49,983 bases of DNA. Origin: Candidatus Peregrinibacteria bacterium GW2011_GWF2_43_17 (lineage in GTDB: Bacteria; Patescibacteriota; Gracilibacteria; UBA1369; UBA12470). Positions 29,605 to 33,096 of the stretch are shown here, piece after piece (the stretch's first letter is position 1; the number at the start of each line of letters is the position of its first letter). Both the position numbers and the translations under genes were made by a program. The notes under the pieces were generated by a model that was given only the letters and a program-made list of their open reading frames with translations, was not told where the DNA came from and ran no database searches. The stretch covers positions 1-49,983 of the forward strand of contig LCFW01000009.1 in NCBI GenBank assembly GCA_000999315.1, given 5' to 3'.

Positions 29605-31719
29605 ATGGCTCCACGACTTCTACAATCTCCGATCAACGAAGAAACTATTGAGACGTATACGCGATATTCCGAGCTTCTCGAACAAGCATCCAACCCTGAA
29701 ACGGCAAGTCGCATAATTAGAGATGAAGTTTGTTCCGTTTTTAGGAACGGGGAAACTCATAATCGTATCGTTCTTGGTCTAAGAAGATATTTGGCCGTAA
29801 TAAGATCCAGAGTGGAACAACTTATGTCGGTGAATCCCGAACCCCTCAAGAGGGAAAATGGCACTTTCAAAAGTTCTCCGCGCACAAGAATCAAACTACT
29901 CCAAGAACTTTGTTCGAGACCCGTAATGCGACAAAATTTCGCACGAAATGATTTAGCACAACACGGCGAAGAATGGTGTGTAGACCAATGTATTATTGAC
30001 CCCGACTTGATTGATGACCATCTGCTCGAATGTTTGGGGCTTGATGAATTTATGCCGAAAAATGTCGAGGCTTGTTTTCCTCCCTCGAGAAAATCCATAC
30101 CGAGACAAGATCAGATTGCGGTCAGGGCGGAAGCTGTCCCGAGTGTAAAAGATATGTTTGCCACAGGGCTTGAACCTTTGCTTTTACAAGATGAGGAGTT
30201 GCAACTCGATGACAATGTACGCTATTTCCGATTTTTCAGAATCACGAAAGGTAAAAATCGCGGCAAGATTTTAGGAACATATAATACCCCCGATCATAAA
30301 AAGGATGTTTTCCTGGTTGATGATATAAATTCCGCTTATCGAAGAGTGGACCATATTTTACAAGGTTACGATGAAGAGATTCGTATTTTGCAAACCATAG
30401 ATCGAAATATAAGACCTGTACGAGACAGGTATAATAAAGACTGGAAAAGTGTAAAAGAGAATAAGGAACTGCCTGCTTTGACAGCTAAAATCACGAGTAT
30501 CGCCGATACGTTAAGTCCGCATGTAAAAAACGAGCATAAGAAAAATATCAGGAGGCAGGTCGCTGAATGTTTGACCGTTTTAGACAGCCGCGGGCGCGTC
30601 AATCCAAATGCGAAAGCGGCCAGATTAAGTACGGTACTTGATCGTATAGGCCGCAGGATAAGTGAGATTTCCGGCATTTCACAACATCTCGCGGGTGATC
30701 GTGTTCATTTGGGCAGATATCTCGAAGAAGAGCGCGGATTGGTTGTTGAGTTTTGCGATAAGGTCGAAGATGGCGCAAAACGGCACGATGGTAACTTGGC
30801 GGTGCTCGATACGGAACACGAAATCGAAGATAAATATCGCGCGAGAATATTGGCTAATTTAAGAGAAGCCAAAAGAACTTTTGAAAGATTTAAATTTCAA
30901 CCTTATTTGGCTCTTTCCGCCGATATGATAAGGGATCTCGACATCGTTATTGATTCCGTTGAAAACCGAAAAGAAAATCCCGAAGATCGAGTGGCTCGAC
31001 AACAAGCCTTTTTGAGGGTTTACGCGATCGCAAAAATGATCAAGTTGGAACACATGGTGGTTATGTCGAGAGATCGGTTCTTTAAGCCCGGTCGGAATCT
31101 GGAGGATTTAAACCCGGGATCTTTATTTGGAGAGATCAAAAAGCTTCAAGCATACTTTTCGCCAAAAAAACGCGCCGTGAGAAAAGATGTAAAGGTCCGA
31201 CCTGTCACTGGAGCCGATGTCGTTATCCCAAATTCTTATCCGTTATATGTCGCAATACATGCGAAAATAAGAGAACTCTTACAACTTGCCAGGAGGGCTT
31301 GCAGTCGCGAATTACGAACAGCCGACAAAGCGGAAGAACGCGTGAAGCTGCTCCTTGAAATCGACCGGCGACTAAAAGTTTTCAGCATATCGAAATTGAT
31401 GGAAGATATGCCTCCTGCGATACCCGAAACCGGTATCGCCAGGAATATCGAAGGGTATCGGAACGACCAATTTGCAAAAGCGGCGTTTAAAGAATTGAAC
31501 GATTTATTTACTCCGGTTTATCAAGATCCATGGTTTGATCATGCAGCTCAATTAGAGGCTGTTCTTGAAAAAGCATCGGAATTAATAGATTCGATGATTG
31601 AGCCACTCGGAATACTCGAGGGCGATGATGCACTTAGGCGAAAATTCGTATCCGATGTTACAATGTGCGGAGATCATGCTAGAAAGATCGTGACTGGGAA
31701 ATTTGGGATACGGAAGTAA
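29605..31719 (+). CDS. Large helical protein of unknown function
   Basis: I do not recognise this 704-residue protein. It has no signal peptide or membrane segment and is rich in Arg, Glu and Asp, with long amphipathic helices. A segment at about 207-240 (VRYFRFFRITKGKNRGKILGTYN) looks like a small beta domain. Two Cys clusters (WCVDQC near 124 and HLLECLG near 140) are notable. The overall look is of a soluble nucleic-acid-associated or structural protein, which is a guess. It is bounded by hairpins on both sides, so it is probably monocistronic. Confidence 0.8.
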   Translation: MAPRLLQSPINEETIETYTRYSELLEQASNPETASRIIRDEVCSVFRNGETHNRIVLGLRRYLAVIRSRVEQLMSVNPEPLKRENGTFKSSPRTRIKLLQELCSRPVMRQNFARNDLAQHGEEWCVDQCIIDPDLIDDHLLECLGLDEFMPKNVEACFPPSRKSIPRQDQIAVRAEAVPSVKDMFATGLEPLLLQDEELQLDDNVRYFRFFRITKGKNRGKILGTYNTPDHKKDVFLVDDINSAYRRVDHILQGYDEEIRILQTIDRNIRPVRDRYNKDWKSVKENKELPALTAKITSIADTLSPHVKNEHKKNIRRQVAECLTVLDSRGRVNPNAKAARLSTVLDRIGRRISEISGISQHLAGDRVHLGRYLEEERGLVVEFCDKVEDGAKRHDGNLAVLDTEHEIEDKYRARILANLREAKRTFERFKFQPYLALSADMIRDLDIVIDSVENRKENPEDRVARQQAFLRVYAIAKMIKLEHMVVMSRDRFFKPGRNLEDLNPGSLFGEIKKLQAYFSPKKRAVRKDVKVRPVTGADVVIPNSYPLYVAIHAKIRELLQLARRACSRELRTADKAEERVKLLLEIDRRLKVFSISKLMEDMPPAIPETGIARNIEGYRNDQFAKAAFKELNDLFTPVYQDPWFDHAAQLEAVLEKASELIDSMIEPLGILEGDDALRRKFVSDVTMCGDHARKIVTGKFGIRK

Positions 31720-31749
31720 CCTGCCTGTTGGCAGACAGGGCGAATTTTA

Positions 31750-31768
31750 AAAACCGTGAGACGGTTTT
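31750..31768 (+). terminator. Hairpin after the 704-residue gene
   Basis: AAAACCGT-GAG-ACGGTTTT, an 8-bp perfect stem starting 31 nt after the stop and ending in TTTTCTC. It is likely the terminator. Confidence 0.6.
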
Positions 31769-31779
31769 CTCGCACTTAC

Positions 31780-32362
31780 AAAAAACAGCCACTAGTTCCG
31801 AAATCCTATCAATGACATTTATAGTACACTGAGGACAATGTCCAGAATAAGTGGCTGACGGGTAGGTGACCAAACCTCCTCTATATGATGCTTTGTTCCG
31901 GTCTAGTTTATGGCCTGACCACGGCCGCCCCTTTATGTATCTTAGTGGCTGCGTAAAGCTGCACTTTGGAGAGACTAAAATACGAAGCTAAATTTTCGTG
32001 CGAGCCTTTAATCTCGCGCGCGATCTCCAGGGTCTCTTCCACATGGGAAGATGGGGATCAGTTACAAAGCAATCCTGAGAACCAAGAATCTTGGTTTTTC
32101 CGAATTTGGATTCGGGGGTAGCGTTGGCTTTTCTCGTCCCGCTTAGCGGGAGAGAATTTAGCGGCTTTCCCTTACCTGTTGGAGATTCGGATTGGCCTCT
32201 GTTTGAAGGTGAGCCCGATAAATATAATTTTTAGGCTGCAAACCTTACGTTTTAGAGGTGAAGTCCCTTAGCTCTACAGGATGGCTTTCTTTTGTTTTGG
32301 TTTTAAGCGCTTGTCGCGCCAGATGTGAAAGAACTTTTTTGAACATTTGAAAATCAAGTGTT
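31780..32362 (-). ncRNA. Candidate structured minus-strand RNA of about 580 nt
   Basis: A 700-nt gene-free gap holds a minus-strand unit with a promoter (32369-32396) at one end and a terminator at the other: CAGCCACT pairs with AGTGGCTG (31786-31857), then TTTTTT (31780-31785). Between them are many inverted repeats: AGAGAC/GTCTCT (about 31965-32035), GCGAG/CTCGC, CCAAGAATCTTGG (about 32080), CCGAATTTGGATTCGG (about 32100) and TCCCGC/GCGGGA (32137-32151). I could not match it to RNase P RNA, tmRNA, 6S or SRP RNA by their conserved cores. A 41-codon frame (MTRTLDFQMFKKVL...) lies near the 5' end. Confidence 0.45.
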
Positions 32363-32368
32363 CGTGTC

Positions 32369-32396
32369 ATTGTATCCAAATTAAGACAAAAGTCAA
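32369..32396 (-). promoter_or_regulatory. Promoter of the candidate minus-strand RNA
   Basis: Minus strand TTGACT (32391-32396), 16-nt spacer, TACAAT (32369-32374). Predicted start near 32362. The region also lies just upstream of purN on the other strand. Confidence 0.55.
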
Positions 32397-32455
32397 ATAT
32401 TTGCGCATTGATGAAATGTCGTGATGTTTCATGGTTCGATTTTTTCAGGTTAGGA

Positions 32456-32483
32456 TTGGCTTTGTTTTTTTTTGTGATAAAAT
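32456..32483 (+). promoter_or_regulatory. Promoter of purN
   Basis: TTGGCT (32456-32461), 16-nt T-rich spacer ending TGTGA, TAAAAT (32478-32483). The -10 box ends 13 nt before the ATG, so the mRNA would be nearly leaderless. Confidence 0.55.
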
Positions 32484-32496
32484 TCTTTTCGCATTT

Positions 32497-33096
32497 ATGA
32501 ACCAATCAAAACCATTCAGAATAGCTGTTTTAGCCTCCACCAAAGGTACCGACCTTCAGGCTATTATAGACGAAGTCAAGGCTGGGACGCTACCTGTCGA
32601 TCTTGCATGCGTGATTTCCAATAAGGAGTGTTATGCGATCCAGAGGGCGAAAGAACAGGGATATGAAACTTTTTATATCAATCCAAAGGGCAAAACGCGC
32701 GAAGAGTTTGATCGCGAAATGGCAAAGATACTGGATGACCACGGAGTACAACTGATTGTGCTCGTAGGATATATGAAGATTTTGAGCAATTGGTTTGTAA
32801 AACATTTTTGGAGAAAAATAATAAACGTACATCCTGCTCTCATACCTAAGTATTGCGGGCCCAATTTCTATGGTGCAAATGTCCATGAGGCGGTTTTGGC
32901 CAATCATGAAAAAGAGACCGGGATGACAATTCATTATGTTGATGAGATATGCGATCACGGTGAGATAATTTTACAAAAGAAATGCGAAGTTAAACCTGAC
33001 GATACGCCTGATACTCTCAAGGCAAGAGTTCAGGGATTGGAGAAAAAATGGTATCCGGAAGTGATTAGGAAGATAGTAGATAGTAGAAAAATTTAA
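32497..33096 (+). CDS. purN: Phosphoribosylglycinamide formyltransferase
   Basis: Transfers a formyl group from 10-formyl-tetrahydrofolate to GAR, the third step of purine synthesis. The 199-residue protein keeps the Asn-x-His and Asp catalytic set (INVHPALIPKY, about 107-117; TGMTIHYVDEICDHG, about 137-151) and the LASTKGTDLQAII phosphate-binding start. The ATG at 32497 fits both the family N-terminus and the promoter; the longer frame would start upstream of the -10 box. It is the only purine gene in this part; purH and two purP genes lie 8-14 kb away. Confidence 0.93.
   Translation: MNQSKPFRIAVLASTKGTDLQAIIDEVKAGTLPVDLACVISNKECYAIQRAKEQGYETFYINPKGKTREEFDREMAKILDDHGVQLIVLVGYMKILSNWFVKHFWRKIINVHPALIPKYCGPNFYGANVHEAVLANHEKETGMTIHYVDEICDHGEIILQKKCEVKPDDTPDTLKARVQGLEKKWYPEVIRKIVDSRKI

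Follow-up and report, generated by a model that had tools for sequence, protein, structure and literature searches.

A new family of large structured RNAs in an order of Peregrinibacteria, with a conserved core seen by comparison

Large structured RNAs that persist as standalone genes tend to have a basic or an unusual role; to our knowledge, few such RNAs are known. Bacterial RNase P RNA and tmRNA are large housekeeping RNAs with pseudoknots. 6S RNA is about 200 nt long and forms one long open bubble; some bacteria have two 6S paralogues. In manner, the RNAs which appear nearest to the one described here are OLE, ROOL and GOLLD, with which no homology was found. According to excerpts of the published work, these three form homo-oligomers in which kissing loops and A-minor contacts are among the stabilising interactions (PMC12286853), and OLE has a length of about 600 nt (PMC9723947). 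Candidate structured RNAs from comparative genomics (PMC2864571 and PMC8040213, in the excerpts available) are backed by the same kind of evidence as is used below, namely intergenic covariation; the present RNA is set apart from them via Rfam only.

The window is a stretch of 49,983 nucleotides, a contig of the 1.2-Mb genome (G000) of Candidatus Peregrinibacteria bacterium GW2011_GWF2_43_17, which is in 16 contigs and is rated 100% complete. The RNA, of about 580 nt, is placed on the minus strand at 31780..32362; its putative 5' end is set by a -10 box and its putative 3' end by a U-tract. It is flanked by a 704-aa open frame and a gene for a formyltransferase, each of which lies on the plus strand. 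Like OLE, ROOL and GOLLD, this Peregrinibacteria RNA is large, standalone and structured, with complementary hairpin loops. It differs from them in its host group and in the lack of an Rfam match in the stretch and in 56 loci of relatives, and it is known from sequence alone.

The preliminary description saw no real gene in the stretch, and this is borne out by three genomes of family f1, to which the window belongs. In their aligned stretches (about 640 bases), each of the six frames contains between 5 and 17 stops, no open run exceeds 113 codons, and many of the indels have lengths that three does not divide. A role as the mRNA of a small protein, or a dual function, is favoured by a purine-rich GGAGG stretch which is conserved in the three genomes. 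However, the GGAGG lies inside a predicted hairpin and, by eye, has no counterpart at the same position in the remaining 16 genomes of the alignment; with the stops and frame-breaking indels, this leaves a coding role exceedingly unlikely. The preliminary proposal that size and structure fit a large non-coding RNA agrees with the conserved putative promoter and terminal arm (see below), which match the proposed extent and size.

None of the 4227 Rfam families reaches its gathering score in the stretch, and none is over threshold in the 56 loci of relatives (16 + 20 + 20); the Rfam scans left out loci L061-L100, bar three in a permissive scan, and L141-L155, bar L145. OLE, ROOL and GOLLD were presumably covered, as we take Rfam to hold these families, and their models gave no match in the stretch or the 56 loci. 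There are four sub-threshold matches in the stretch up to E = 10, the best at E = 1.7. A match to CbSR12 in the window (16.2 bits; gathering score 195) was taken as chance. The permissive scan took in six loci, two of which (L107 and L120) are already among the 56, and gave a neighbouring tRNA and one match at E = 0.27. The latter is to anti-hemB at L107:2247-2324 (22.2 bits; gathering score 49.5), which lies in the 3' portion of the L107 copy, and was also taken as chance; tRNA-like sub-threshold matches in L080 are the adjacent tRNA-Ile gene. Being below threshold for all of the Rfam families, the RNA family is considered new; it is 'categorically new' at the RNA-family level only. If a 'large ornate RNA' kind is accepted, it is a new family within that kind. 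No such RNA is described in the literature searched on Peregrinibacteria, Patescibacteria, Gracilibacteria and the candidate phyla radiation, a search from which most subscription journals were missing.

By its size and standalone layout, the RNA could be a divergent copy of a housekeeping RNA, i.e. RNase P RNA, tmRNA, SRP RNA or 6S RNA. However, the genome encodes RNase P RNA (RF00010) at G000:C1:45076-45466 (178.5 bits) and tmRNA (RF00023) at G000:C7:46977-47381 (108.3 bits). Up to E = 10, the stretch has no match to either of these or to SRP RNA (RF00169) or 6S RNA (RF00013), and none of its four matches is to these families; their cores could not be placed in the preliminary description either. 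RNase P RNA and tmRNA are large and pseudoknotted like the Peregrinibacteria RNA, but they are encoded elsewhere and do not match the stretch. 6S RNA comes in paralogue pairs in some bacteria, as does the present RNA in 30 of 66 genomes, but 6S RNA is shorter and has no Rfam match in the stretch. A point in favour of a divergent SRP RNA is that SRP RNA (RF00169) was detected in none of the 89 genomes of the order (controls 11/14). The SRP54 M domain (PF02978; Ffh) is found in 0/89 order genomes as against 14/14 controls, so no Ffh was seen to bind an SRP RNA, and the RNA as a replacement for SRP RNA was rejected because the M domain is also missing from the order. The absence of SRP subunits from many CPR bacteria has already been published, as stated in an excerpt of PMC8080830. 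A divergent housekeeping RNA is on these grounds extremely improbable.

Plain DNA similarity searching reported 6 of the 89 order genomes, of which three are false (22-40-base matches) and three are real: G000, G066 and G065, all of family f1. The wider family was missed by DNA similarity and is revealed by covariance models only. Model R1, made from the 3' 210 nt of three genomes, found the RNA in 19/89 order genomes at E up to 0.1. Model R2 was made by aligning the Pa domain (see below) of 19 genomes and writing the structure by hand; it found 66/89. In an even sample of the phylum, which includes class members, R2 (weaker than R3) matched 11 of 379 genomes, all 11 within the order; 16 order members were sampled, which leaves 0/363 others. 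Model R3 was built from 92 copies, four copies with long inserts (L135, L150, L134 and L137) having been dropped beforehand. It found the RNA in 90 of 353 class genomes: 73/89 within the order and 17/264 outside it. Thirteen of these 17 genomes are from one family, and the weakest of the 17 is at E = 0.008. G016 has a match to R2 (1.0e-5) and none to R3. Neither R2 nor R3 finds the RNA in family f12 (0/8 genomes); given this absence from all eight, either the RNA is dispensable in the order or its f12 form is too divergent to be recognised. The exact 19-mer GGAGGTTTGGTCACCTACC occurs in the named genomes Candidatus Peregrinibacteria RIFOXYA2_FULL_41_18 and CG2_30_44_17, which are the two other f1 genomes and carry the nearest relatives of the stretch, and in two Nocardia contigs; the Nocardia matches were taken as chance. 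An exact-pattern search of IMG/VR, phage records and plasmid records gave no match. The RNA is thus kept across most of an order in small genomes (1.2 Mb in the present case).

The nested inverted repeats noted in the preliminary description are present in the stretch, and both of its strands fold more stably than shuffled sequence (z = -4.1 for the minus strand and -4.5 for the plus strand; 0/20 shuffles are as stable on either). Folding energy alone therefore cannot pick the strand. A consensus fold of the three f1 genomes has 129 pairs, 20 of which have changes on both sides. In a MAFFT alignment of 19 sequences (A3), which is not fitted to a model, 89.3% of cells are paired as against 36.7-40.4% when the structure is slid. 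Four of five measures in A3 are above all 500 shuffles; further pair types come to 40 as against 38.7 shuffled, a value which 164/500 shuffles reach. Some rows of f1 and f2 in A3 have Pb shifted by one to three columns, and pseudoknot helix a is misaligned there in G051.

The largest alignment holds 96 copies (95 distinct) from 66 genomes and is fitted to R2; identical copies were counted once, here and in the strand, loop-loop and P0 counts below, and L082, a further locus for a G004 copy that L101 already contains, was dropped beforehand. Here 92.4% of cells are paired, as against 74.7% shuffled and 27.5-48.5% slid, and 26/29 pairs have changes on both sides. The covariation score is 0.537 (shuffled 0.230; slid at most 0.112), and all five measures are above all 500 shuffles. 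It should be noted that alignments A4 and A5 were fitted to a model and that these sequences also supplied the structure, which works in its favour. There are 322 G-U cells as against 74 A-C cells, an excess that places the RNA on the window's minus strand, as first proposed. Sequence and folding are both conserved and covariation is strong across the copies, so that by covariation the stretch belongs to a structured RNA family; that this family is real and new is almost certain. Comparison shows what is, from sequence, a putative independent RNA gene on the minus strand with a conserved predicted structure.

The core of the RNA as shown by comparison has four predicted parts: the closing helix Pa, the arms Pb and Pd, and an H-type pseudoknot. 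All coordinates that follow are on the minus strand. Pa is a long-range helix that closes the core; its 5' strand is at 32064..32071 and its 3' strand at 31889..31896, where it is marked by an inverted repeat (I25) and by covariation. As helix 1 of the alignment, it is 91.4% paired, with changes on both sides in 7/8 pairs. The Pb hairpin (32022..32059; helix 2, 84.5% paired over all copies) pairs GAUC at 32059-32056 with 32025-32022. Its loop GACC is at 32034-32031, and a nested stem is found in f1; the hairpin was placed in the window by eye. Pd (31927..31988) is a two-part arm in which 31988-31979 pairs with 31941-31937 and 31931-31927; its two parts, helices 3 and 4, are 97.8% and 94.1% paired. 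The pseudoknot lies at 31900..31926, with helix a formed by 31926-31923 and 31915-31912 and helix b by 31920-31917 and 31903-31900. Helix a is absent from R2 and R3; it is 94.9% paired (slid 5.3-49.7%; shuffled 89.1%) and all four of its pairs have changes on both sides. Helix b is 94.1% paired. The A-rich loop of the pseudoknot is UAAAAA in many copies and AUAAACUA in the window copy. Many families have, by eye, a terminal arm in which CUCAG is opposite UUGAUAG.

After the core, many families also have a hairpin whose loop reads, for example, UUGGUC, beside a CAAAAACAAAAACA linker (by eye). In the window this hairpin is at 31864..31877 on the minus strand, with the loop UUGGUC at 31873-31868, and it is the proposed partner of the Pb loop GACC. 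The two loops change together: the pairs found are GACCAA/UUGGUC, GACUAA/UUAGUC, UAACC/GGUUA, UGAUU/AAUCA and UUACCA/UGGUAA. The longest complementarity between them averages 5.08 as against 4.74 permuted in 95 copies, and 3.69 as against 3.16 in the 86/95 copies whose hairpin is defined by structure; 0/1000 permutations reach the value in either case, in tests which do not remove relatedness. Five or more pairs are available in only 19/86 copies (permuted mean 9.0, maximum 18), and four, by eye, in the window copy. Pairing of the UUGGUC loop with the GACC(AA) loop of Pb is therefore rated as probable and no higher, since permutation keeps relatedness and so few copies reach five pairs.

Complementary hairpin loops, together with the size of the RNA, its pseudoknot and its A-rich linkers, are also what would be looked for in an RNA-only oligomer of the OLE, ROOL and GOLLD sort, the homo-oligomers of which use kissing loops according to an excerpt of PMC12286853. 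By analogy, the loop-loop contact would join separate molecules, and paralogues would form separate or mixed assemblies. However, the same contact is possible within one molecule, and there is no match to an Rfam family; such an oligomer is considered unlikely.

A further helix, P0, may compete with the closing helix of the core. Its 5' strand is at 32277..32288 (minus strand) and is predicted to pair with 32077-32066 (inverted repeat I9, 92% complementary), a segment that shares six bases with the Pa 5' strand (32071-32064). When 200 nt are searched, P0 is above all 20 shuffles in 45/94 copies, where about 4.5 would be expected; the P0 strand of the window sits at the edge of this reach. With 300 nt, P0 is above all 20 shuffles in 46/94 copies, including the window copy and that of G065. 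The other 48/94 have no P0 beyond shuffles; among them is G066, of the same family as the window, for which 2/20 shuffles are as good. With its anchor placed outside Pa, P0 extends into Pa by a mean of 1.87 bases in 94 copies; with shuffled Pa letters the figure is 0.58. The anchor without Pa is above all shuffles in only 20/94 copies, and the overlap of P0 with Pa is often a few bases only. The finding that P0 can pair with the Pa 5' strand, so that two folds compete at least in part, is supported but is weaker than that of the core. From sequence, a full switch between the P0 and Pa folds is possible; a fold switch is a tentative proposal, and rather a doubtful one.

A putative promoter is found upstream of the RNA at 32369..32396 on the minus strand, the strand on which the preliminary description reported one. 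It has a -35 box TTGACT (32396-32391), a 16-nt spacer and a -10 box TACAAT (32374-32369). By scanning alone it is near chance (3 sites at 31500-32700 as against 2.0 expected), yet its sequences TTGACTTT and GATACAAT are invariant in 3/3 family-f1 genomes. Promoter scores of at least 10 are found upstream of 59/95 copies, as against 66/285 shuffles. At the other end is the 72-nt terminal arm (31786..31857, minus strand; inverted repeat I8), which carries the CUCAG/UUGAUAG element and is kept in f1. Six U follow it at 31780..31785, and five or six are kept in the three f1 genomes. Of the U-tract terminator reported earlier, the U-tract after a long arm holds and is conserved in f1; a simple hairpin terminator does not, as neither a terminator scan nor a second search found one in the window copy. 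Across the family, a terminator-like site is found downstream of the core on the RNA strand in 76/94 copies, as against 15/94 antisense and 3/94 shuffled. The 18/94 copies which do not have a simple terminator include all three f1 copies, in which the U-tract follows the long terminal arm. Copies with short flanks were left out of the terminator, promoter, loop-loop and P0 counts, and n is given with each count.

Competing helices are typical of switches, and the RNA could be a cis-acting leader (a riboswitch or an attenuator) of a gene beside it. Each paralogue keeps its neighbours in part, and the nearest downstream frame is on the sense strand in 28/94 copies. However, the nearest upstream open frame is divergent, on the opposite strand, in 84/94 copies, and the nearest downstream frame is convergent in 66/94 (neighbour frames of at least 90 aa, chosen mechanically); a conserved sense gene directly downstream was not found. 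The terminator-like sites after the core also count against a leader, as do the unrelated kinds of neighbour: serine dehydratase, F420 ligase, formyltransferase, exonuclease and MscS channel. A cis-acting leader is very unlikely.

The same neighbours suggest two distinct loci. Locus A is beside serine dehydratase beta, F420 ligase or formyltransferase, often with an MscS channel gene; locus B is beside a DnaQ-like exonuclease and often CarA, which was named from sequence by eye. In 18 of the 30 genomes with two copies, an A neighbour lies next to one copy and the B exonuclease next to the other. The window genome has a single copy, which is grouped with A by its neighbour. A quick tree of the copies has a poorly supported root and does not fix the age of the duplication. 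Some genomes have tandem or near-tandem copies (G004:C13:22393 and 22910; G003:C7:64391 and 66850; G033:C2:49489 and 52210), in contrast with the two-locus layout of other genomes.

Among the roles considered, a trans-acting scaffold is the most probable, because the RNA is standalone and large, its core is compact, it has a putative promoter and a terminal U-tract to itself, its neighbours are unrelated, and no viral, phage or plasmid relative was found; the chance of this is put at about even. In the proposed mechanism, P0 would form first during transcription and would be displaced by Pa once all of the core has been made. The finished core, locked by the pseudoknot and by the contact between the loops, may then be the scaffold of a complex, either of RNA with protein or of RNA only. 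Each of the two paralogues might have a condition or a complex of its own to serve; their presence and that of competing helices suggest regulation. Taken as a whole, the explanation which best fits the findings (a standalone large non-coding RNA gene that acts in trans as a scaffold, with P0-to-Pa switching and two paralogue roles) is reasonably probable. A bolder form of it is improbable: that this is an undescribed core RNA machine of a clade without a detected SRP, which toggles between P0 and Pa, is locked by the pseudoknot and by GACCAA/UUGGUC, forms an RNA-based complex, and has two ancient paralogues with separate jobs. In these uncultured bacteria, the RNA may have a part in the working of the cell that has so far gone unrecognised. 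The alignment and structure make it directly testable, as they indicate which ends to look for and which pairs to break and restore.

Several smaller features were seen in and around the RNA. The 704-aa open frame (window 29605-31719, plus strand) is an orphan with no Pfam match; in G066 it is replaced by shorter frames (L028:3336-4013), one of which is, by eye, like its C-terminus. Just 3' of the 704-aa frame, at window 31720-31750, is an inverted repeat, CCTGCCTGTTGGCAGACAGG, which recurs twice more on contig C2 and is possibly a repeated terminator. Within the variable 5' domain of the RNA, at window 32134-32151, there is a palindrome, CCCGCTTAGCGGG. The stretch of 16-20 bases around the palindrome is also found at nine further places in G000 (E up to 1) and looks like a small dispersed repeat.
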